From Janthinobacterium sp. GW458P (GTDB taxonomy: Bacteria > Pseudomonadota > Gammaproteobacteria > Burkholderiales > Burkholderiaceae_D), in contig NZ_NEGZ01000012.1 in NCBI RefSeq assembly GCF_002127585.1, positions 46,312 to 110,311 of the forward strand: a DNA stretch of 64,000 nt, written 5' to 3'. This document shows positions 12,151-22,813 of the stretch, piece after piece. A program made the translations under genes and the position numbers. The notes under the pieces were generated by a model that saw only the letters and a list, made by a program, of their open reading frames with translations, ran no database searches and was not told where the DNA came from. Each line of letters starts with the position of its first letter. Within the stretch, counting starts at the first letter, position 1.

Positions 12151-12606
12151 ATGCGCCTGACCGCCTATACCGATTACACCCTGCGCACGCTGATGTACCT
12201 GGGCGTGCACCGCGACCGCCTCGTCACCATCCAGGACATCGCCGACCTGCATGCGATCTCGAAAAATCACCTGATGAAGGTGGTGCACCAGCTAGGCCTG
12301 TCAGGCATCGTGGAAACCGTGCGCGGGAGAAATGGCGGCCTGCGCCTGGCGCGCGACCCGGCAGAGATCAATATCGGCACGGTCGTGCGCGAGACGGAAA
12401 GTGATTTCTTCATGGCCGAATGTTTCAACAAAGACAATAATACCTGCCCGCTGACGCCCGATTGCCTGCTGAAGGCCAAGCTGGGCCAGGCCACGGCGGC
12501 CTTCCTGGCCGTGCTCGACACGGTAACGCTGGCCTCGATACTCGAAGCGGCGCCGGGCGTGCCGGCGCTGGCGGCGGGCGTGATTCCCTTGCGCGTGGCC
12601 AAGTAA
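12151..12606 (+). CDS. nsrR: Rrf2-family nitric-oxide-sensing repressor NsrR
   Basis: The 151-residue transcription factor carries an Rrf2 winged helix (MRLTAYTDYTLRTLMYLG, ISKNHLMKVVHQL, VRGRNGGLRLA) and three cysteines, C91, C99 and C105, in the ECFNKDNNTCPLTPDC region that would ligate an Fe-S cluster. NsrR loses DNA binding when nitric oxide attacks the cluster, derepressing detoxification genes. An NsrR-like operator is found upstream of the hemerythrin-hmp unit 4 kb away, which supports the assignment. No clear Shine-Dalgarno sequence precedes the ATG. A dyad 20-34 bases upstream could give autoregulation. IscR is less likely given the short length and cysteine spacing. Confidence 0.9.
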   Translation: MRLTAYTDYTLRTLMYLGVHRDRLVTIQDIADLHAISKNHLMKVVHQLGLSGIVETVRGRNGGLRLARDPAEINIGTVVRETESDFFMAECFNKDNNTCPLTPDCLLKAKLGQATAAFLAVLDTVTLASILEAAPGVPALAAGVIPLRVAK

Positions 12607-12632
12607 GGGTCAGGTAAGCGCGTGCCAAAAAC

Positions 12633-12660
12633 AACAATGCCCGGCGAACCGGGCATTGTT
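12633..12660. terminator. Bidirectional intrinsic terminator between nsrR and actP
   Basis: A perfect 12-bp stem (12633-12644 with 12649-12660, AACAATGCCCGG) closes a CGAA loop. On the minus strand it is followed by GTTTTTGG, suiting termination of actP; on the plus strand it lies 27 bases after the nsrR stop. The two genes converge here. Confidence 0.85.
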
Positions 12661-12683
12661 TCCTGCAGTAATGACCTACAACA

Positions 12684-14369
12684 TCAATGTGCGCTGGCGC
12701 CTGCCGCGCCGATGCCCGTCTCCGAACGCATTTGCTGCGCTTCGTAGCCGGCGCGGTCGATGCGCGCGCGCGGGCTCCTGTCGAGCACCGAGAACAGCCA
12801 GATGCCGACGAAGCCCGCCGTCATCGAGAACAGCGCCGGCGAGGCGTACGGGAACAGCGCTTCGCCATGACCGAGCACGTCAACCCACACGGACTTCGAC
12901 ACCACCGTCAGCGCAACGGCCGTGATCAAACCGAGGAAGCCGCCGATGGTGGCGCCCCGCGTGGTGCAGTCTTTCCACAGCACCGACATGAACAGCACGG
13001 GGAAGTTGGCCGAGGCGGCAATGGCGAAGGCCAGCGACACCATGAAGGCGATGTTCTGCTTTTCAAAAGCGATGCCCAGCACCACGGCGATGATGCCCAG
13101 CACGATCGTCGTCACGCGCGACACTTTCAGTTCGCTGGCGCCCGTGGCCTTGCCCTTCTTGATGACGGTGGCGTACAGGTCGTGCGACACGGCCGACGCG
13201 CCCGACAGGGTCAGACCGGCCACGACGGCCAGGATGGTGGCAAACGCGACCGCAGACATGAAGCCGAGGAAGACGTTGCCGCCCACGGCCTTGGCCAGGT
13301 GCACGGCCGCCATGTTGTTACCGCCCAGCAATTTACCGGCTGCATCCTTGAACTCGGGATTGGTGCTCACCAGCACGATGGCGCCAAAGCCGATGATAAA
13401 GGTCAGAATGTAGAAATAGGCGATCCAGGTGGTGGCCCAGAACACGGACTTGCGCGCTTCCTTGGCGCTTGGCACCGTGAAGAAACGCATGAGGATGTGC
13501 GGCAAGCCGGCCGTGCCGAACATCAGCGCCATGCCGAACGAGATGGCCGAGATCGGGTCCTTGATGAAGGAACCGGGGCCCATGATGGCTTCCTTGGTGG
13601 CGTGTACGTCCACGGATTTGGCGAACAGCGCTTCCGGGCTGAAGTTGAACTGCGCCAGCACGGCCACGGCCATGAAGGTGGCGCCGCCCAGCAGCATCAC
13701 GGCCTTGATGATCTGCACCCAGGTGGTGGCCGTCATGCCGCCGAACAGCACGTAGATCATCATCAGGGTACCGACCAGCACGACGGCGATCCAGTATTCG
13801 AGGCCGAACAGCAGCTTGATCAGCTGGCCCGCGCCCACCATCTGCGCGATCAGGTAGAAGGCCACGACGACGAGGGTGCCGGAGGCCGAAAAAATGCGGA
13901 TCGGCGCCTGCTTGAAGCGGTAGGCGGCCACGTCGGCAAAAGTGTAGCGGCCCAGGTTGCGCAGGCGCTCGGCCATCAAAAAGGTGATGACGGGCCAGCC
14001 GACGAGAAAGCCGATGGCGTAGATCAGGCCGTCATAGCCGTTCAAGAAGACGGCGGCGGAAATGCCGAGAAACGATGCGGCCGACATATAGTCGCCGGCG
14101 ATGGCCAGGCCGTTCTGGAAGCCCGTGATGCCGCCGCCGGCCGTATAGAAATCGGACGCCGACTTGGTCTTCTTGGCCGCCCACTTGGTGACGAACAGGG
14201 TAAAGATGACGAAGACGGCGAACATGATGATGGCCGTCCAGTTGGTGGGCTGCTTGACTGCCTGGCCCAGGTCGGCGCCGGCCGCCAGCGCGCTGTTGCT
14301 GGCGGCCGCCAGCAAGGCCAGGGCTGCCAGGCAGGGAAGCTTGCGTTGCGTCAAAGGGGCGCCGTTCAT
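12684..14369 (-). CDS. actP: Cation/acetate symporter ActP
   Basis: The 561-residue sodium:solute symporter family protein takes up acetate and similar short-chain acids. It has an N-terminal signal-like segment ([16 protein letters not shown]), then about thirteen helices, including [29 protein letters not shown], a signature of ActP, and [32 protein letters not shown]. The start codon overlaps the stop of the upstream DUF485 gene by four bases (ATGA), the standard yjcH-actP arrangement. Transcription probably ends at the hairpin near 12640. Specificity for acetate over pyruvate or propionate is inferred from gene order. Confidence 0.93.
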
Positions 14370-14674
14370 GCCTGCACCCGCGCTTGAATGGCTTGCGTCA
14401 GGTCGTCGAACTGCTTGTTGGCGCGGCGCACGTAGATGCCGGTGATCACCACGGTAAACACGATGACGAACAGGCCGATCGGCATGCCCCAGGTCATCAC
14501 GCCCGCGCCGGTTTTGGCGGCAAGAAATTCCTTGTCGAACGCGATCAGCAGGATATAGCCGTAGTACACCAGCATCATCAGGCCCGTCAGGGCCCAGCCG
14601 AAGCGCGAGCGCACCCTGACCAGTCGATGATAATTGGGGTCGCTCTTGAGTTTTTGTACCAGATCGTCATGCAT
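14366..14674 (-). CDS. yjcH: DUF485 membrane protein YjcH
   Basis: The 102-residue inner-membrane protein has two helices ([22 protein letters not shown] and [20 protein letters not shown]) and a C-terminal [14 protein letters not shown] segment typical of DUF485. In many proteobacteria this gene precedes actP and is co-transcribed with it; its biochemical role is not established. GGAGG lies at normal spacing before the ATG at 14674. The four-base overlap with actP indicates translational coupling. Confidence 0.92.
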
Positions 14675-14805
14675 GGTGTTGCCTCCGTTATGTAAAAACC
14701 TGCTCTTTTCTTTTCGAGCTTGCTTTCACAATACGGGGCCAGCCTTACCCGCCCCTTACGGCGCGTTTTTTTTCTCGCCAGGGCAACACATGGCTTTCAG
14801 CAACA

Positions 14806-15993
14806 TCAGTTCAGCGCGGAGGCGGGGCCGAAGAATTCATAATGGGTCTGCGCTTCCGGCACGCCCAGTTCGCGCAGATAGCCTTTCATGGCGCGCATGA
14901 ACGGCTGCGGTCCGAGGAAATACGCATCGACATCGCGCGATTCGGGCAGCCAGCTGCCCAGGCTGTCCTTGTCGAGCAGGCCGACGGCGTCCGGCGCGGC
15001 GGCGTCCGGCGCGCCGGCGTGTTCCGCGTAGCAGTAGTAACGCTTGAGCTGCGGATGCTGCGCCGCCAGCGCGTCAATGTGCGCGCGGAACGCATGCACG
15101 CCATGGTGGCGCGCCGCGTGGATGAAATGCACGGGGCGCTTGCCGCGCAGGGCCGCCGTCAGCATGGCCAGGGTCGGCGTGATGCCCACGCCGCCGCTGA
15201 TCAGCACCAGCGGCTTGTCGCCGTCCTGCAGCACGAAGTCGCCCGACGGCGGCGTCAGCTGTACGGTGTCACCCGCCTGCACCTGGTCATGGAAGAAATT
15301 GGACACCTTGCCGCCCTGCTCGCGCTTGATGCTGATGCGGTAAGTCTGGCCATTGCTGGCGGCGGACAGCGAATACTGGCGTCGCATGGGCACGCCGTCG
15401 ACGGTGGCCACCACGCCGATATATTGACCTGGCGCAAAGTCGAGCACGGGCTGGCCATCGGCGGGCGCCAGCAGGAAGGACGTGATCTCGGCGCTTTCCA
15501 CCGTCTTGCTGCGCACTACAAAGTCGCGCGCGCCGCTCCAGCCGCCCGGCGCGGCCGCTTGCGCCTTGTAGATGCGCCCTTCCTCGCCGGCCAGGATGCC
15601 GGCCAGCTGGCCGTAGGCCGCGCCCCAGGCGTCGATGACGGCGTCGCTGGCCACCTCTTCGCCCAGCACTTCGCGGATGGCCCGCAGCAGGCTGGCGCCC
15701 ACCAGCGGATAGTGTTCGGCGCGGATCTGCAGCGCCACGTGCTTGTTGACGATGGTCGAGACCAGCTCGCCCAGCGCTTCCAGCTGGTCGATATGTTTGG
15801 CGTACATCAACACGCCATTGGCCAGCGCCCGCTGCTGGTCGCCGCTGTGCTGGTGCGCCTGATTAAAGTACGGCAACACTTCAGGATGGTCGCGGAACAG
15901 GTTCTTGTAGAAATGGCGGGTCAGCGCTTCGCCGCCCCGCTCGAGGATGGGGACGGTGGCCGTGACGATGGCGCGTTGTTCTGGGGTCAGCAT
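14806..15993 (-). CDS. hmp: Flavohemoprotein (nitric oxide dioxygenase)
   Basis: The 395-residue cytosolic enzyme oxidises nitric oxide to nitrate with oxygen and NAD(P)H. The globin domain (1-140) has Tyr29 and the proximal heme ligand His85 in NKHVALQI. The FAD domain has RRQYSLS (around 205-210), and the NAD domain has ISGGVGITPT (from about 265); the C-terminus ends YEFFGPASALN with the usual FFGP. It lies 54 bases after the hemerythrin gene on the same strand, so both are probably expressed from the NsrR-controlled promoter upstream of the latter. Confidence 0.97.
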   Translation of the reverse strand: MLTPEQRAIVTATVPILERGGEALTRHFYKNLFRDHPEVLPYFNQAHQHSGDQQRALANGVLMYAKHIDQLEALGELVSTIVNKHVALQIRAEHYPLVGASLLRAIREVLGEEVASDAVIDAWGAAYGQLAGILAGEEGRIYKAQAAAPGGWSGARDFVVRSKTVESAEITSFLLAPADGQPVLDFAPGQYIGVVATVDGVPMRRQYSLSAASNGQTYRISIKREQGGKVSNFFHDQVQAGDTVQLTPPSGDFVLQDGDKPLVLISGGVGITPTLAMLTAALRGKRPVHFIHAARHHGVHAFRAHIDALAAQHPQLKRYYCYAEHAGAPDAAAPDAVGLLDKDSLGSWLPESRDVDAYFLGPQPFMRAMKGYLRELGVPEAQTHYEFFGPASALN

Positions 15994-16047
15994 GTGGCAT
16001 TCCTGTCTGAATTTGATGTAAGAAAAAGGTTGGGAAGTGCGGGCAGC

Positions 16048-16458
16048 CTAGAGCGCTTCCATGGCCGGATACAGTTCGTGATCCTCGCGCCGCATGCGCT
16101 GGTACAGCGCGTGCAGCACGGTGTTGGCTTCGCTGCGGAAGGCGTCGGGTTCGGCTTCCAGGCGCACCGGGGTGTTCCAGCGGCCGGCGAAGTCCAGGTA
16201 GGCGCCGGCGATGCCGTCCATCTCGCTTTCATACCGGCGTCCCAGGCTGGCCACCGTGGCCACGCCGCAGGCCTGCGCTGCCGGGTACAGGTAGCGCTGC
16301 TCGACGGCCAGGTGCAGCTTGATCAAGCCGCTCATGGCAACGATCTGTTCGGCGATGGCCGCCGCCTGCGGCGCGACGCCGGCGCGCGCCAGCTGGCGCA
16401 AGTCATCGATGGCGGCCAGGATGGCCAGGTGCTGCTGCTTGAATTTGTCGATATTCAT
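16048..16458 (-). CDS. Hemerythrin-like (HHE) di-iron protein
   Basis: The 136-residue protein is a single four-helix hemerythrin cation-binding domain with candidate iron ligands His10, His49, Glu53, His116 and His127, in QQHLAIL, KLHLAVEQRYLYP and REDHELYPAMEAL. It lacks the N-terminal ScdA domain of Ric/YtfE, so it is not a full-length cluster-repair protein. Location directly upstream of hmp and behind an NsrR-like operator indicates a role in nitric oxide or peroxide response, possibly oxygen or NO binding. The ATG at 16458 follows GAAGAACGCC. Confidence 0.87.
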   Translation of the reverse strand: MNIDKFKQQHLAILAAIDDLRQLARAGVAPQAAAIAEQIVAMSGLIKLHLAVEQRYLYPAAQACGVATVASLGRRYESEMDGIAGAYLDFAGRWNTPVRLEAEPDAFRSEANTVLHALYQRMRREDHELYPAMEAL

Positions 16459-16528: not shown

Positions 16529-16703
16529 TAATCCGTGAAGTTGCCTACAGGAATGTTGATTGAGCTAGGCCATTATGTGCGTCAGAGAACATAAACAAAT
16601 GGCCATGCCTGCCTATAATTTCCTATCGACAGACCGGACCTGGCCACCTGCGCATGCGGCGCAAGGCAGACCGCCCGGCGCCACCACCCCGTCAAGGATG
16701 AAC

Positions 16704-17597
16704 ATGAAAAACAACAAGAACGACAAGAACGGCATGGGCCAGACGCAACAGCTGGCCGCCATCATCGGCCAGCACCACGAGCAATTGCTGGAAGGCTGGA
16801 TGGCGGACCTGATTTCCCGCCTGGTGCGGCGCGACAAGATCGCGGAAAACGAGCTGCGCCAGCAGGCCGCGCAATTCTTGCCCCTGCTGGCGCGCGCGCT
16901 GGAAAGCGGCGACGCCTTCGATATCGAAGGAAACGCCTGGGACGATACGCGCCAGCTGCTCAGCGAAATGTCGCAGTCGCGCGTGCGCCAGGGCTATTCG
17001 CCGATCGACACGGCCAGCTTCGTCTTTGCGCTCAAGGAGCCGCTGTTCGCCTATCTGCGCAAGGAAATCACGGCGCAGCCCGAGCAGCTGGGCGACGCCA
17101 TCGTCGCCACCAGCAAGCTGTTCGACGAACTGGGACTGCTCACCATCGCCATCTACCAGAAGGCGCGCGAGCAGGTGATCCTGCGCCAGCAGCAGGAGTT
17201 GCTGGAACTGTCCACGCCCGTGGTGCAGCTGTGGCAAAACGTGCTGGCCCTGCCCCTGATCGGCACCCTCGACAGCGCCCGCACGCAGGTGGTGATGGAA
17301 AGCCTGCTGCAAAAGATCGTCGACACGGGCGCCCTGATCGCCATCATCGACATCACGGGCGTGCCCACCGTCGACACGCTGGTGGCGCAGCACCTGCTGA
17401 AAACCATCGCCGCGGCGCGCCTGATGGGCGCCGACTGCATCATCAGCGGCATCCGCCCGCAGATCGCGCAAACCATCGTGCACCTGGGCGTGAACCTGGA
17501 GGACGTGATCACCAAGGCCACGCTGGCCGACGCCTTCGTCGTGGCCCTGAAACGCACGGGTTCCACCATCACCTACCAGCAGCAGCAGCAGCACTGA
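16704..17597 (+). CDS. rsbR: RsbR-type stressosome scaffold protein
   Basis: The product is about 298 residues. The N-terminal half (about 15-170, QLAAIIGQHHEQLLEGWMADL to AIYQKARE) fits the globin-like sensor fold of RsbR proteins. A linker helix (ILRQQQELLELSTPVVQLW) leads to a C-terminal STAS domain with DITGVPTVDTLVAQHLL and GIRPQIAQTIVHLG; the threonines in these motifs correspond to the two RsbT phosphorylation sites. It should form the stressosome core with RsbS. The ATG at 16704 is preceded by AAGGA at 5 bases; an ATG at 16698 is the alternative. It is the first gene of a six-gene unit that ends at 22813. Confidence 0.88.
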   Translation: MKNNKNDKNGMGQTQQLAAIIGQHHEQLLEGWMADLISRLVRRDKIAENELRQQAAQFLPLLARALESGDAFDIEGNAWDDTRQLLSEMSQSRVRQGYSPIDTASFVFALKEPLFAYLRKEITAQPEQLGDAIVATSKLFDELGLLTIAIYQKAREQVILRQQQELLELSTPVVQLWQNVLALPLIGTLDSARTQVVMESLLQKIVDTGALIAIIDITGVPTVDTLVAQHLLKTIAAARLMGADCIISGIRPQIAQTIVHLGVNLEDVITKATLADAFVVALKRTGSTITYQQQQQH

Positions 17598-17604
17598 GGC
17601 GCCT

Positions 17605-17967
17605 ATGGAAAGAATCCCCATTTTACGCATGGGCCGGCTGTTGCTGGTGACGATACAGGTGGACATGCATGACCGCCTGGCGATGACCCTGCAGGACGAC
17701 CTGACCACGCGCATCGTCAAGGACCGCGCCACGGGCGTGCTGATCGACATTTCCGCGCTCGACATCGTCGACTCCTTTATCGGCCGCATGATCAGCAACA
17801 CGGCGGCCATGGCGAAAATCCTCGACGCGCACACGGTGGTGGTCGGCATGCAGCCCGCCGTCGCCATCACCCTGGTGGAGCTGGGGCTGACCCTGGACGG
17901 CGTGAGCACGGCGCTGAATGTGGAACAGGGCATCAAGCTGCTGGAACGGGGCAGCCTGTGGGATTAA
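17605..17967 (+). CDS. rsbS: RsbS-type stressosome STAS protein
   Basis: This 120-residue protein is a single STAS domain (PILRMGRLLLVTIQVDMHD; GVLIDISALDIVDSFIGRMI; HTVVVGMQPAVAITLVELG). Ser57 in the VDSF motif corresponds to the serine of Bacillus RsbS phosphorylated by RsbT. In the known system unphosphorylated RsbS holds RsbT inactive in the stressosome. It starts 7 bases after rsbR and its end overlaps the GTG of rsbT by 10 bases, so the three are translated together. Confidence 0.93.
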   Translation: MERIPILRMGRLLLVTIQVDMHDRLAMTLQDDLTTRIVKDRATGVLIDISALDIVDSFIGRMISNTAAMAKILDAHTVVVGMQPAVAITLVELGLTLDGVSTALNVEQGIKLLERGSLWD

Positions 17968-18404
17968 GTCCCGCCTGGCAGCCGTCCAGCGCCACGGCAC
18001 GGGAAGGGGCGCAGGTGCTGCCCCTGCTCAGCGATGAAGACGTCGTGCGCCTGCGCCGGCAGGTGCGCGACAGCATGGTCGCCATGGGTTTTGGCCTGAT
18101 CGAACAGACCAAGATCATCACGGCGGCCAGCGAACTGGCGCGCAACACCCTGCGCTACGGCGGCGGCGGCGAGGCGCGCATCGTGCGCGTGCATGAAGGC
18201 GTGCGCCAGGGGCTGGAGCTGAGTTTTGTCGATACGGGCCCCGGCATCGACGATATTTCCCTGGCCCTGTCCGATGGCTACACCAGCGGCGGCGGGCTGG
18301 GACTGGGGCTGGGCGGCGCCAAGCGCCTGGCCGACGCCTTTCACATCGACACGGCACCCGGCTCGGGCACCACCGTCACCATCGCGAAATGGAAGCTGTT
18401 TTGA
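17958..18404 (+). CDS. rsbT: RsbT-type switch serine/threonine kinase
   Basis: The 148-residue kinase has the GHKL ATP-binding fold: N box ASELARNTLRYGG (Glu59, Asn63), G1 box DTGPGI (from Asp92) and G2 region GGGLGLGLGGAKRL. In Bacillus, RsbT phosphorylates RsbS and RsbR, leaves the stressosome and activates a downstream phosphatase. Start is a GTG inside the end of rsbS. Its 3' end overlaps the next gene by 16 bases. No RsbU-type phosphatase or sigma factor lies nearby, so its released form must act on a different partner. Confidence 0.92.
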   Translation: MGLSPAWQPSSATAREGAQVLPLLSDEDVVRLRRQVRDSMVAMGFGLIEQTKIITAASELARNTLRYGGGGEARIVRVHEGVRQGLELSFVDTGPGIDDISLALSDGYTSGGGLGLGLGGAKRLADAFHIDTAPGSGTTVTIAKWKLF

Positions 18405-19486
18405 ACCACCTGGAACCACCGCCTGACATCCTCAGGCAAAGAAGCTTCCCCATCGGCGAACCGAGCGAAATCGCCGCGGCGCGCCGTGCCGGCAACGAGC
18501 TGGCGCGCCGCATCGGCTTCGACGACGTGCGCGCGGGCCAGCTGGCCATCCTCATCAGCGAGGCGGCCACCAACATCGTCAAGCATGCGCGGCGCGGCGA
18601 AATCCTGCTGCGCAAGGTGCTGCGCGGCGGCACCAGCGGCGTCGAGGTGCTGGCCATCGACAGCGGCCCCGGCATCGGCAACGTGCGCCAGCACATGCAG
18701 GACGGCCATTCCACCACAGGCACGTATGGCGTGGGCCTGGGCGCGATGCGGCGCCTGAGCCAGGAATTCGACCTGTACACGGCGCCCGGCAAGGGCACCT
18801 TGCTGATGATGGTGGTGTGGGGACCGCACGCCAGCAGCGCCATTCCCCCCAGCCCGAACTGGCAGATCGGCGCCGTCTGCCTGCCGCTGGCGTCGGAACA
18901 GGTCTGCGGCGACGCCTGGAACGTCGTCTGCGAAGGCCATGAACTGAGCCTGATGGTGGCCGACGGCCTGGGCCACGGCCCGCTGGCGGCCAGGGCGTCG
19001 GAAACGGCCAGCGCCCTGCTCGAAAACAGCACGCCCGGCCTGCCGCCCCTGCCCGCGCCCTTCATCGAGCTGGCGCACGGCGCCCTGCGGGCCACGCGCG
19101 GCGCGGCCTTGGCCGTGGCGCACATCGACAGCGCGCGCCGCGAACTGCGCTACTGCGGCGTGGGCAACATCGCCGCCTGCGCCTTCGACGCCCACCAGCG
19201 CCGGCACCTGCTGTCGCATAACGGCATCGTCGGCAGCAATCTGCGCAAGCTGCAGGAATTCCGCCACCCGTGGCAGCCGGGCACGACCCTGATCATGCAT
19301 TCGGACGGCCTGCACACGCGCTGGGACCTGGAACAGTATCCGGGCCTGGCGCAATGCCACCCCAGCCTGGTCGCCGCCGCGCTGTACCGCGATTTCGCTC
19401 GCGGGCGCGACGACGTCACGGTGGTGGTGCTGCGCGAGCACGAGGAGCACCGGCATGCCGGTGCGGAAAGGAACGACACGCCATGA
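18389..19486 (+). CDS. Fusion of an Rsb-type ATPase domain to an RsbX/SpoIIE-like PP2C phosphatase
   Basis: The product is 365 residues with two parts. Residues about 20-140 form a second GHKL kinase domain with N box [11 protein letters not shown] (Glu58, Asn62), G1 box DSGPGI (Asp91) and G2 [10 protein letters not shown]. Residues about 155-355 are a PP2C-type phosphatase with [22 protein letters not shown] and [11 protein letters not shown], keeping the metal-binding aspartates. In Bacillus, RsbX resets the stressosome by dephosphorylating RsbR and RsbS; here the opposing ATPase and phosphatase activities sit on one chain. It overlaps rsbT (16 bases) and the next kinase (4 bases, ATGA). 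Confidence 0.88.
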
Positions 19487-21312
19487 CACAACGCATATTG
19501 ACCGCCAATATCGCCAGCGAACTCGATGTCGTCGGCGCCCGCCAGCGCGCGCGGCAGATCGCCGGCCTGTGCGGCTTCGGCGTGCAGGACCAGGTACGCA
19601 TCGCCACGGCCGTATCGGAACTGGCGCGCAACGTCTACAACTACGCGGGCAGCGGCAAGATCCACTTCGCCATCGACGGGCAGACGGCGCCGCAGGTGTT
19701 CACCATCCGCATCGAGGACCAGGGGCCGGGCATCGCCGCGCCGCAGTTGCAGCACATCCTGGCCGGCAGCTACCGCTCGCCCACGGGCATGGGCCTGGGC
19801 ATCCTCGGCGCACAGCGCCTGATGGACCGCTTCCACATCGACAGCGCGCCGGGCGCAGGCACGCAGATCACCTTGCAAAAGCTGTTCCCCCGCGACGCGC
19901 CCCTGCTCGACGGCCAGAGCATCGGCGCGCTGGGCGGCAGCCTGCAGGCGCTGCCGCCGGACATCACGCTGGCCGAAGTGCAGCAGCAGAACCGCGAGCT
20001 GCTGGCCACCCTGGCCGAACTGAAGACGCGCCAGGACGATTTGCTGCAGCTGACGCGCGAACTGGAAGACACCAACCGGGGCGTGGTGGCGCTGTACGCG
20101 GAACTGGACGAAAAGGCCGACCACCTGCGCCGCGCCGACCAGATGAAATCGCGCTTCCTGTCGAACATGAGCCATGAATTCCGCACGCCGCTCAGCTCCA
20201 TCCGCGCCCTGTCCAAGCTGCTGCTCGACCGGGTGGACGGCGAACTGTCCGAGGAACAGGAAAAGCAGGTGCTGTTCATCCTGCAGGGCGCCGTCAGCCT
20301 GAGCGACCTGGTCAACGACTTGCTGGACCTGGCCAAGATCGAGGCGGGCAAGGTCGACGTGCACGCCAACAGCTTCCAGGTGGCCGACCTGTTCAGCGCC
20401 CTGCGGGGCATGCTGCGCCCGCTGCTGGTATCCGAGTCGCTCGCCCTCACCTTCATCGCCCCCGATCCGGCCCTGCAGATCCATACGGACGAAGGCAAGC
20501 TGTCGCAAATCCTGCGCAACTTCATCTCCAACGCCCTCAAGTTCACCGAGGCCGGCGCCATCATCGTCAGCGCCACGCCCCTGCCGGAACAGGATGCGAT
20601 CCGCTTTTCCGTCTCCGACACGGGGCTGGGCATCGGCGCCGAGGACGTGCAGCTGATCTTCGAGGAATTCAGCCAGGTGGAAAACCACATGCAGCGCAAG
20701 GTCAAGGGCACGGGCCTGGGCCTGCCCCTGTGCCGCAACCTGGCGGCCCTGCTCAACGGCACGGTGGCCGTGGAAAGCACGCCGGGCAAGGGATCGCTGT
20801 TTTCCGTGGTCCTGCCGACGCACTACCAGGCGCCCGAGGGCAGCCTGCCGCCCAGCGCGCCGGCCAACGACAACGGCAACGACCAGCGCATTCCCGTGCT
20901 GGTGGTGGAAGACAACCCGCCCGTGCGCCTGCTGTATGAAAAATTCCTGGCCGCCAGCGAGTTTCGCGTGGTGGCCGCGCGCAGCGTGCGCGAGGCGCAG
21001 GAGCGCTGGGAGCAGCAACGGCCGGCCGCCGTCATCCTCGACATCCTGCTGCACGGCGAAAATGCATGGCACTGGCTGGCCGAACTGAAAAACGACCCGC
21101 AGCGGCGCCAGGTGCCCGTCATCATCGCCACCGAAATCGACGACAAGCGCAAGGGCCTGGCGCTGGGCGCGGACGCGTATTACGTCAAGCCCCTGCTGCG
21201 CCAGCAGCTGCTGTCGACCCTGCGCGCCCTGCTGGGCCACACAAACAACCGGCAAGCGCCGGACACGCCGCAAGGCACAACCAACTGGGATAATGCGCAT
21301 GCTACCGGATAA
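19483..21312 (+). CDS. Hybrid histidine kinase with N-terminal RsbT/RsbW-like ATPase domain and C-terminal receiver
   Basis: The product is 609 residues, starting at an ATG that overlaps the previous stop. Residues 1-132 form a third Rsb-type ATPase (N box [13 protein letters not shown] with Glu46 and Asn50; G1 DQGPGI; G2 GMGLGILGA). A coiled coil (about 162-225, [20 protein letters not shown]) leads to a HisKA domain with phospho-acceptor His231 in [11 protein letters not shown], a HATPase_c domain ([17 protein letters not shown]) and a receiver (about 480-600, VLVVEDN, VILDILL, YYVKPL). The layout suggests that the stressosome output is passed directly into a His-Asp phosphorelay instead of a sigma factor pathway. 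It has no membrane helices. Confidence 0.88.
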
Positions 21313-22813
21313 CAACAGCGATGCTCTGATCCTCAACGTCGATGACAGCGACGGCGCACGCTACGCCAAGTCGCGCATCCTCACGCGCGCCGGCTTCAAG
21401 GTGATCGAAGCGTCGAACGGCGGCGACGCGCTGCTGCGCGCCCGCCAGGAGCGCCCGAACCTGATCCTGCTCGACGTCAAGCTGCCCGACATCAATGGCC
21501 TGGAGGTATGCCGCCAATTGAAGGGCGGAGCCGACACGAACACCATCCTGGTGCTGCAGACGTCGGCCTCGTGCATCGGCACGGCCGACAAGATCCGCGC
21601 CCTCGACGGCGGCGCCGACAACTACCTGGTCGAGCCGATCGAGGCCGATGAACTGATCGCCAACGTCAAGGCGCTGCTGCGCCTGGGCAAGGTGGAGCGC
21701 GCGCTGCGCGACGTCGACCGCCGCAAGGATGAATTCCTGGCCACCCTGGCGCACGAATTGCGCAATCCGCTGGGCCCCATCCGCACGGCGCTGGCCCTGC
21801 TGTGCAAGCTCGACCCCGTCGTGCCGGCCATGCAGGACAATGCGCGCCGCACCATCGCCCGCCACACGGACCACCTGGTGCGCCTGGTGGACGACCTGCT
21901 CGACGTGTCGCGCATTTCGCAGGGCAAGATTTCGCTGCAGTGGGAAAGCGTCAGCCTGGCCAGCGTCATCCGCAGCGCCGTCGAAACCAGTTCGCACAGC
22001 ATCGCGGCGCGCGGCCATGCGCTCGACGTGAATCTGCCCGTGGAAGAATTGTGGGTCAGCGGCGACGCCGTGCGCCTGTCGCAGATCGTCGCCAACCTGC
22101 TGCTCAACGCGGCCAAGTTCACGGCGCCGGGCGGACGCATCGTCGTTAGCGCCGAACGCGACGGCGACGGCGTGCGCATCCGCCTGAGCGACAACGGCAT
22201 CGGCATCGACGCCGCCAGCATCGACAGCATCTTCGGCCTGTTCGCGCAGAGCGGGCACTCTCCCGACCGGGTGCAGGACGGCCTGGGCATCGGCCTGTCG
22301 CTGGTGCGCAACCTGGTGCAGCTGCACGGCGGCCAGGTCAGCGTGCGCAGCCCCGGCGTGGGCCTGGGCAGCACCTTTGAAGTCCATCTGCCGCTCGACG
22401 CCAACGTGCCGCTGCCCGTGCCCGCCGCCGCGCCGCAGGACGCCGGCAGCAGTCAGCGCATCCTCGTCGTCGACGACAACTGCGACGCGGCCGACACCCT
22501 GGCCGAGCTGCTGGAAATCTACGGCCACACAGTGTGCACGGCCTACACGGGCGGCCAGGCCACGCAGCGCACGCTGGAATTCCGGCCCGACATCGTCTTC
22601 CTCGACATCGGCCTGCCCGACATGAATGGCTACGAAGTGGCCGTCAAGCTGCGCCAGCTGCCGATCCCGCAGCACTTCCGGCTGGTGGCGCTGACCGGCT
22701 ATGGCCAGGAACACGACCGCCAGGCCGCCATGCAGGCCGGTTTCGATGAACATTTCGCCAAGCCCGTCGATTTCGGCAAGCTGGCCAGCCTGGGGCTGCA
22801 TATCGGGGCGTGA
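21293..22813 (+). CDS. REC-HisKA-HATPase-REC hybrid histidine kinase
   Basis: The 506-residue cytosolic kinase overlaps the previous gene by 20 bases. The N-terminal receiver (about 10-130) has acidic residues NVDDSD and phospho-acceptor Asp61 in LLDVKLP, but the conserved Lys-Pro is Glu114-Pro115 (YLVEPI), which should alter its phosphorylation. HisKA follows with His156 in LAHELRNPLG, then HATPase_c (NLLLNAAKFT, DNGIGID, GLGIGLSL) and an intact C-terminal receiver (VVDDNCDAAD, FLDIGLPDMNGYE, AKPV). It is the last gene of the Rsb operon and is the likely outlet, though no DNA-binding regulator follows it. Confidence 0.9.
   Translation: MRMLPDNNSDALILNVDDSDGARYAKSRILTRAGFKVIEASNGGDALLRARQERPNLILLDVKLPDINGLEVCRQLKGGADTNTILVLQTSASCIGTADKIRALDGGADNYLVEPIEADELIANVKALLRLGKVERALRDVDRRKDEFLATLAHELRNPLGPIRTALALLCKLDPVVPAMQDNARRTIARHTDHLVRLVDDLLDVSRISQGKISLQWESVSLASVIRSAVETSSHSIAARGHALDVNLPVEELWVSGDAVRLSQIVANLLLNAAKFTAPGGRIVVSAERDGDGVRIRLSDNGIGIDAASIDSIFGLFAQSGHSPDRVQDGLGIGLSLVRNLVQLHGGQVSVRSPGVGLGSTFEVHLPLDANVPLPVPAAAPQDAGSSQRILVVDDNCDAADTLAELLEIYGHTVCTAYTGGQATQRTLEFRPDIVFLDIGLPDMNGYEVAVKLRQLPIPQHFRLVALTGYGQEHDRQAAMQAGFDEHFAKPVDFGKLASLGLHIGA

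Follow-up and report, generated by a model that had tools for sequence, protein, structure and literature searches.

Janthinobacterium sp. GW458P encodes a stressosome together with two enzymes, a phosphatase and a histidine kinase, that each carry an RsbT-like domain. The genes lie in a 64,000-nucleotide stretch of contig NZ_NEGZ01000012.1 (the window), where open reading frames and Pfam matches define a six-gene operon on the forward strand (16698-22813). It consists of rsbR, rsbS, rsbT, an ATPase-PP2C fusion, a hybrid kinase that begins with a further ATPase domain (kinase 1), and a second hybrid kinase (kinase 2). We refer to the three RsbT-like domains as T1 (free-standing RsbT), T2 (on the phosphatase) and T3 (on kinase 1). 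In part of the T3 family, the ATP-binding boxes are damaged and the RsbT-type helical face is kept. From sequence comparison we suggest, with a probability of about 0.6, that T3 is a docking tether through which the stressosome holds a histidine kinase directly, without an RsbU-like adaptor or a sigma factor.

Part of the T3 family has lost its ATP-binding boxes. We scored six box residues: the Asn of the N box, the Asp and two Gly of the G1 box, and two Gly of the G2 box. All six are intact in 77 of 111 distinct T3 domains, and at least one is changed in the other 34. The damage is severe in 28 of these 34, where the Asn has disappeared together with two or three of the G1 residues. The damaged forms come from Massilia, Duganella, Paraburkholderia, Caballeronia and further relatives. 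By comparison, all six residues are kept in 128 of 128 distinct T2 and in 123-124 of 124 distinct T1, the one exception (L192_T1) being a cut-off T3. We also built a tree of the operon core (RsbR STAS, RsbS, T2-PP2C and kinase core, with T3 left out; 91 thinned rows, 31 of them damaged) by a quick method without mixture, which shows some long branches. On this tree box damage needs two changes, one in Paraburkholderia/Caballeronia and one in Massilia/Duganella, both forced by starred branches.

The damaged domains retain residues of the face that binds STAS proteins in RsbW. According to the available text of PMC7340262, RsbW contacts the STAS protein RsbV through bonds from Arg23 and Glu49, the latter to the phosphorylatable Ser56 of RsbV. 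The equivalents of both are retained in all 34 damaged T3, as is each of Thr42, Arg39 and Arg49 (window kinase numbering). Of the RsbW contacts, which also include Tyr118, we compared Arg23, Asp42, Lys44, Ser48 and Glu49, placing them on T3 by an identical 26-residue Arg-Glu spacing and by profile alignment to SpoIIAB Glu46/Asn50. RsbT itself has been modelled on RsbS with a potential base, Glu45, facing Ser56 (PMC9237128, in the sections available), and the equivalent glutamate is invariant in T1, T2 and T3. The columns that damaged T3 conserve at 90% or more are enriched in the three helices (17/48 versus 9/94 elsewhere; Fisher p 0.0004).

The three RsbT-like domains are not equivalent. The earlier note on this DNA described three Rsb-type ATPase domains in series with intact N, G1 and G2 boxes, and the boxes are indeed intact in all three window copies; yet T1, T2 and T3 fall in different groups of the domain tree, and only T3 loses its boxes. 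In this tree (163 thinned domains; a quick method on few columns, 134), the T3 group has a starred support of 99 and holds 54 rows (52 T3 plus L125_T3x and L192_T1). The T1 group (starred support 97) holds 29 T1 and L156_T3x, an over-extended T1 frame that, like the cut-off L192_T1, was retained in the tree. The T2 group has 62 rows and a support of 92, and three more T2 rows (L131, L132 and L134) sit elsewhere. The pattern T-x2-S-E-x2-R is common to T3, T1 and mostly to the free-standing RsbT of other loci with rsbR, rsbS and rsbT (Ta, 12 rows), and T2 mostly has I/L-x2-T-E-x2-T instead. By the pattern that it has in common with T1, T3 appears to be an RsbT-type domain. The different grouping of T1, T2 and T3, together with box loss in T3 and its kept RsbT-type helical face, points to a kinase docked via T3 and not to free RsbT carrying the signal.

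Split operons support the docking reading, as does the presence of T3 on more than one kinase core. In five loci (L075, L077, L078, L126 and L127), the kinase lacks T3, the PP2C stands free and there are two free RsbT-like genes, the second of which sits beside T2 in the domain tree. In four of the five (L075, L077, L078 and L127), the kinase carries RsbU_N above the cut-off, at the same end at which T3 stands on the T3-kinases; L126 scored 15.9 bits against a cut-off of 25.5. A docking role for T3 is supported because RsbU_N, the known RsbT receptor, thus takes its place. A Pfam scan of three T3-kinases, window kinase 1 among them, found no RsbU_N.

Several observations weigh against a docking role for T3. 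The window T3 carries the RsbT-type helical signature and its ATP-binding boxes together, so any pseudo-ATPase behaviour is deduced from relatives. Not every RsbW contact is kept: Ser48 is matched by Ser in 27 of the 34 damaged T3 and by Leu in 7, Asp42 by Arg or Lys in T3 and T1 (by Arg in all 34 damaged T3), and Lys44 by Ala, Gly or Ser. Dimerisation is another possible role of the kept face, since helix alpha1 also makes the RsbW dimer, with beta1 (PMC7340262, available text). The helix enrichment is not specific to damaged T3, because a similar trend is seen in intact T3 (25/48 versus 22/94) and in T1 (25 versus 26). Furthermore, the tree of T3 itself places the damaged forms in one clade (starred support 95), which may reflect one origin with transfer, or convergence. 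Finally, eight phylum loci (L110-L113, L115, L120, L122 and L124) combine T2-PP2C with an orthologous kinase that lacks both T3 and RsbU_N and has only a coiled-coil-like segment ahead of HisKA. Among phylum-sample loci with T2-PP2C and such a kinase, seven have T3 and eight lack it; therefore T3 is not indispensable. Three representatives of these T3-less kinases nest inside the T3-kinase group of the kinase tree (starred support 97); depending on where the root lies, they have lost T3 or other kinases have gained it.

Some of these observations would also suit a free RsbT that acts as messenger, as in Bacillus. RsbT would then activate kinase 1 by pairing with T3 as a GHKL heterodimer or by phosphorylating the kinase, and T3 would be the receptor that replaces RsbU_N. 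The presence of RsbU_N at the same kinase end in four of the five split operons is consistent with this, as is the RsbW dimer contact, alpha1 being part of the kept T3 face; a messenger would also account for the eight kinases that lack T3. Against it stands the conservation of Glu46, which corresponds to the glutamate of RsbW in contact with the STAS serine and would have no obvious use in a dimerising receptor that does without ATP. We consider a free RsbT messenger unlikely, if credible.

T2 and T3 might instead be further Ser/Thr kinases of the RsbW/SpoIIAB kind, acting on RsbS, RsbR or STAS proteins elsewhere, with T3 thereby tuning its own kinase. The intact boxes in the window, in 77 of the 111 T3 and in every T2 are what such kinases would show, and the T3 profile matches SpoIIAB (1til/1th8) and RsbW (6m36), SpoIIAB best. 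The 34 T3 with damaged boxes and a kept face argue against it, as does the lack of any other short STAS protein in the genome by PF01740. We find this explanation improbable overall; for T2 it may still hold.

Structure prediction agrees with one T3 fold in intact and damaged forms. AlphaFold2 models of the window T3-linker-kinase core (40 sequences; mean predicted local distance difference test, pLDDT, 85.3; predicted template modelling score, pTM, 0.50) and of the damaged L174 protein (22 sequences; mean pLDDT 78.9; pTM 0.47) have the same order of elements in T3, strand-helix-helix-strand-strand...helix-strand-strand. Per block, T3 pLDDT is mostly 85-95 in the window and 59-91 in the damaged form. 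The long helix after T3 runs into the HisKA domain, and the low pTM means that the arrangement of domains is not reliable. A Foldseek search with the damaged-T3 kinase returned histidine-kinase cores as all of its best 50 matches, none informative on T3. In L174 (9394-10731), the damaged T3 is missed by Pfam HATPase_c_2, whose sole match is the ATPase region of the kinase itself. Severely damaged T3 can thus escape Pfam, and such tethers may be overlooked elsewhere.

The six-gene order recurs in relatives, as found by the survey that the earlier note had proposed. Genomes were sampled by an RsbS match (E<=0.001), present in 51 of 145 genomes of the family and 40 of 398 of the phylum. We took 49 family loci (all but that of the window and that of G004, whose one match was weak) and 28 of 40 phylum loci (leaving out the window's own, G018, which was already in the set, and ten others). 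A further 80 named loci are the matches listed in a fusion-protein scan, which favours this architecture; some come from the same genomes as those in the RsbS samples, which bear G handles. Annotation of the 157 loci used profiles derived from the domains of the window operon. The exact consecutive order occurs in 120 of 157 loci, or 104 of 141 after removal of identical copies: 42/49 in the family sample, 5/28 in the phylum sample and 73/80 among the named loci. This recurrence suggests that the arrangement is more than chance, and it strongly supports a genetic connection of the Rsb genes with both kinases. The named loci with the full order belong to Pseudomonadota (56), Cyanobacteriota (14), Acidobacteriota (2) and Verrucomicrobiota (1), and the first five genes are also found in one Nitrospirota and one Armatimonadota locus; the loci from these last four phyla are metagenome assemblies. 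All six genes, regardless of order, are present in 121 loci. The difference is L138 (Janthinobacterium sp. TND4EL3), where the kinase 1 frame is split into a T3-kinase part of 485 amino acids and a kinase-REC part of 221 amino acids by a frameshift or a sequencing error.

The fused proteins were also searched for in a large protein database. The fusion query gave at least 6754 matches among 8000 scored candidates, and the T3 query gave 4904 among 5865. All of the best 120 T3 matches carry HATPase_c_2 with HisKA and HATPase_c. In public databases these proteins go by general names such as "ATP-binding protein". In the fusion-protein scan that supplied the named loci, the nearest named relative among the matches listed is from Janthinobacterium sp. 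TND4EL3 (97%).

The kinases could merely be co-transcribed with the stressosome, their RsbT-like domains doing something unrelated. In the kinase tree, kinase 2, which varies more between lineages, has been exchanged several times, and the Vibrio vulnificus study reports, in the text available, no interaction of RsbT with the kinase next to it (PMC9237108). Against this stand the gene order kept in four phyla, the joining of T3 to more than one kinase core (the L118 and L123 cores fall apart from the kinase 1 core in the kinase tree) and the RsbU_N that stands where T3 would be in split operons. We judge mere co-transcription very improbable.

Other layouts occur among the loci. L125 (9583-10821; family f55) carries, next to rsbR, rsbS, rsbT and the T2-PP2C gene, a fusion of an RsbT-type domain with a HisKA_2 kinase. 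L135-L137 have an older-looking layout of rsbR, rsbS, rsbT, PP2C and a hybrid kinase, with an Hpt domain in L135. L131-L134 (family f39) have RsbR, RsbS and a T-PP2C fusion, with no free RsbT detected, and the fused ATPase may be the sole RsbT in these loci.

The residues needed for stressosome phosphorylation and for a His-Asp relay are mostly kept. In the window rsbR, rsbS and rsbT are adjacent, and the RsbS Ser, the RsbR Thr/Ser phospho-acceptors, the RsbT catalytic Glu and its boxes are all present. Counts here include the window and repeated genomes. Over 158 loci, the first RsbR site is Ser in 152 and Thr in 6, the second Thr in 146, Ser in 8 and Ile in 4, and the third Thr in 153, Ser in 3 and Ala in 2; the RsbS phospho-acceptor is Ser in 150. 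The PP2C Asp residues are retained in 156-157 of 157. Kinase 1 retains its phospho-accepting His in 127 of 127 and its own REC Asp in 78 of 127 (44 gaps, 5 Ala). In kinase 2, the REC1 Asp and the His are each kept in 131 of 131 and the REC2 Asp in 122 of 131. In sequence searches of the PDB, the best relatives of RsbR are 7o0i_B and Listeria RsbR 7b0u, and RsbS matches the RsbS chains 6jhk, 6qcm and 2vy9; a single-sequence search with RsbT alone gave no match at E<=0.01. The PP2C half best matches 3w40 (RsbX) and 3zt9, deposited as SpoIIE and presumably the Moorella RsbX homologue MtX. With its metal-binding Asp residues, this makes the T2-PP2C phosphatase RsbX-type, although it is fused to T2 and is not the single-domain PP2C of Vibrio-type loci.

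We infer the docking, release and relay steps as follows. At rest, RsbS unphosphorylated at Ser57 would bind RsbT and the T3 end of kinase 1, T3 occupying the RsbT seat on RsbS/RsbR and making kinase 1 a stressosome client. When RsbR senses stress, RsbT would phosphorylate RsbR and RsbS, T3 would lose its seat, and the kinase 1 dimer would be freed or re-oriented. Kinase 1 would then autophosphorylate on its His and pass the phosphate to receiver Asp61 of kinase 2, and from there onward via a carrier and a regulator encoded elsewhere, a route suggested by the kept His and Asp residues of both kinases. T2-PP2C, which we read as the reset phosphatase, would be drawn to the same STAS scaffold and remove the phosphates. 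We give even odds to a broader statement, that the stressosome acts without a messenger: a covalently fused RsbT domain, a dead-ATPase tether in two lineages, would hold the kinase, and one particle would have three RsbT-type clients, namely the opening kinase, the resetting phosphatase and the output enzyme.

A separate SigB-like pathway is rejected by searches of the genome (6.28 Mb, 156 contigs). RsbU_N has no match in it (the control matched in B. subtilis only), and none of seven matches to the SigB/F/G model is over the cut-off. PF01740 finds five STAS domains, two in the operon and three in frames of 511-589 amino acids, so there is no free RsbV by this model (STAS_2 was not searched). 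None of 33 HATPase_c_2 matches lies in a frame shorter than 276 amino acids; this search also missed the operon's own rsbT, and a free RsbW is thus not strictly excluded. The statement that RsbU, RsbV, RsbW and a sigma factor are missing therefore extends genome-wide for RsbU_N, the SigB group and RsbV by PF01740, and less strictly for RsbW. Kinase 2 has no output domain, the operon has no Hpt or output domain, and the genome has 20 Hpt matches. The genome's only other SpoIIE-type phosphatase gene (L218, 832-3624; on contig C142) precedes a GGDEF gene, an order that we take to resemble the SiaABCD cluster; no link to the operon was seen, and we rejected it as the output.

Neighbouring genes give no general clue to the output. 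Just upstream (12151-16458) lie an Rrf2-type regulator, presumably NsrR-like, an acetate-permease-like pair, a flavohaemoglobin and a hemerythrin-domain gene. In 19 other loci, each from Janthinobacterium or of the same genus by kinship, the hemerythrin and permease genes also adjoin the operon, and outside Janthinobacterium loci a flavohaemoglobin is found only in L043 and L121. This confined recurrence led us to reject nitric-oxide detoxification as a general clue; a nitric-oxide or oxygen stress input in Janthinobacterium is possible.

Table 1. Coordinates of the operon genes, domains and key residues in the window.
Feature	Position	Strand	Description	Basis
rsbR	16698 or 16704-17597	+	RsbRD_N PF14361 (about 16755-17057) and STAS (about 17232-17534)	Pfam
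rsbR likely phospho-acceptors	Ser 17274-17276, Thr 17376-17378	+	further conserved Thr 17472-17474	
rsbS	17605-17967	+	single STAS; Ser57 codon 17773-17775	Pfam
rsbT (T1)	17958-18404	+	free-standing GHKL ATPase/kinase, HATPase	Pfam
T2-PP2C fusion	18389-19486	+	HATPase_c_2, RsbT-like (about 18458-18811) and SpoIIE/PP2C, RsbX-type (about 18935-19435)	Pfam
T2-PP2C active-site/metal-binding Asp codons	18911, 18962, 19304, 19409, 19412	+		
kinase 1	19483-21312	+	T3 (HATPase_c_2), HisKA, HATPase_c and REC	Pfam
kinase 1 parts	T3 about 19483-19893; HisKA about 20143-20349, His 20173-20175	+	88-residue predicted helix between T3 and HisKA	Pfam, AlphaFold2
kinase 1 C-terminal parts	HATPase_c about 20488-20820; REC about 20896-21222, Asp 21040-21042	+		Pfam
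T3 residues	Arg20 19540-19542; Arg39 19597-19599; Glu46 19618-19620; Arg49 19627-19629; Asn50 19630-19632	+	Asn50 is the N-box Asn	
kinase 2	21293-22813	+	REC1 (Asp61, 21473-21475), HisKA (His154, 21752-21754), HATPase_c and REC2 (Asp438, 22604-22606)	Pfam

The six genes and their identities are those given in the earlier note. Its overlaps of 4-20 bases hold for four of the five junctions (10, 16, 4 and 20 bases, with starts as listed); rsbR and rsbS are separated by a gap of 7 bases.

Modules of rsbR, rsbS and rsbT were reportedly surveyed in 2005 by Pane-Farre and others. For V. vulnificus, a stressosome (rsbRSTX) with two-component output has been published (Heinz et al. 2022, PMC9237108). 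Links from stressosome to His-Asp relay, RsbX adjoining the module and RsbU_N on some target kinases are likewise on record (PMC9237108, PMC12143880; available text of both). The wiring of a stressosome to two-component kinases is thus already known and is not new. The earlier proposal, that stressosome release enters a His-Asp relay reset by a fused kinase/phosphatase, is a fair outline as far as genetic linkage, an RsbX-like PP2C and kept Asp and His residues go; we would amend it in that the kinase itself is more likely docked via T3 than served by free RsbT. The use of RsbT-like domains, T2 on an RsbX-type phosphatase and T3 on a kinase, looks new: in the open-licence literature we found no RsbT-type domain fused to a histidine kinase or RsbX, nor loss of its ATP binding.

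The window operon resembles several known systems in part. Like Vibrio-type loci, it has the three-gene module, an RsbX-type phosphatase and hybrid kinases directly downstream, and both are without RsbU and SigB. As far as the available text of PMC9237108 goes, the Vibrio RsbX consists of one PP2C domain, its RsbR carries a globin sensor, and some targets, not most, have RsbU_N, with no mention of such fusions; in the window, by contrast, the phosphatase is fused to an RsbT-like domain, RsbR has RsbRD_N (PF14361) and the kinase has an RsbT-type domain. The operon has RsbR, RsbS, RsbT and an RsbX-type phosphatase in common with the B. subtilis SigB pathway, but its genome has no RsbU_N, SigB-group factor over the cut-off or short STAS RsbV by PF01740. 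With the RsbU_N-histidine kinases of proteobacterial operons (cited in eLife 2025, PMC12143880, available text) it has a histidine kinase as stressosome output, although an RsbT-type domain stands at the N-terminus in place of RsbU_N. T3 has the GHKL fold of SpoIIAB and RsbW, the closest solved relatives of its profile; unlike them, it is fused to HisKA-HATPase, has lost its ATP boxes in part of the family and has no sigma partner that we found.

Some T3 domains have naturally lost ATP binding but still have the partner face, and so set docking apart from catalysis in RsbT-type proteins. How Gram-negative stressosomes put out their signal is an open question, to which the T3-kinase fusion offers a concrete, testable answer. 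It also accounts for how the pathway could do without an RsbU-like adaptor.

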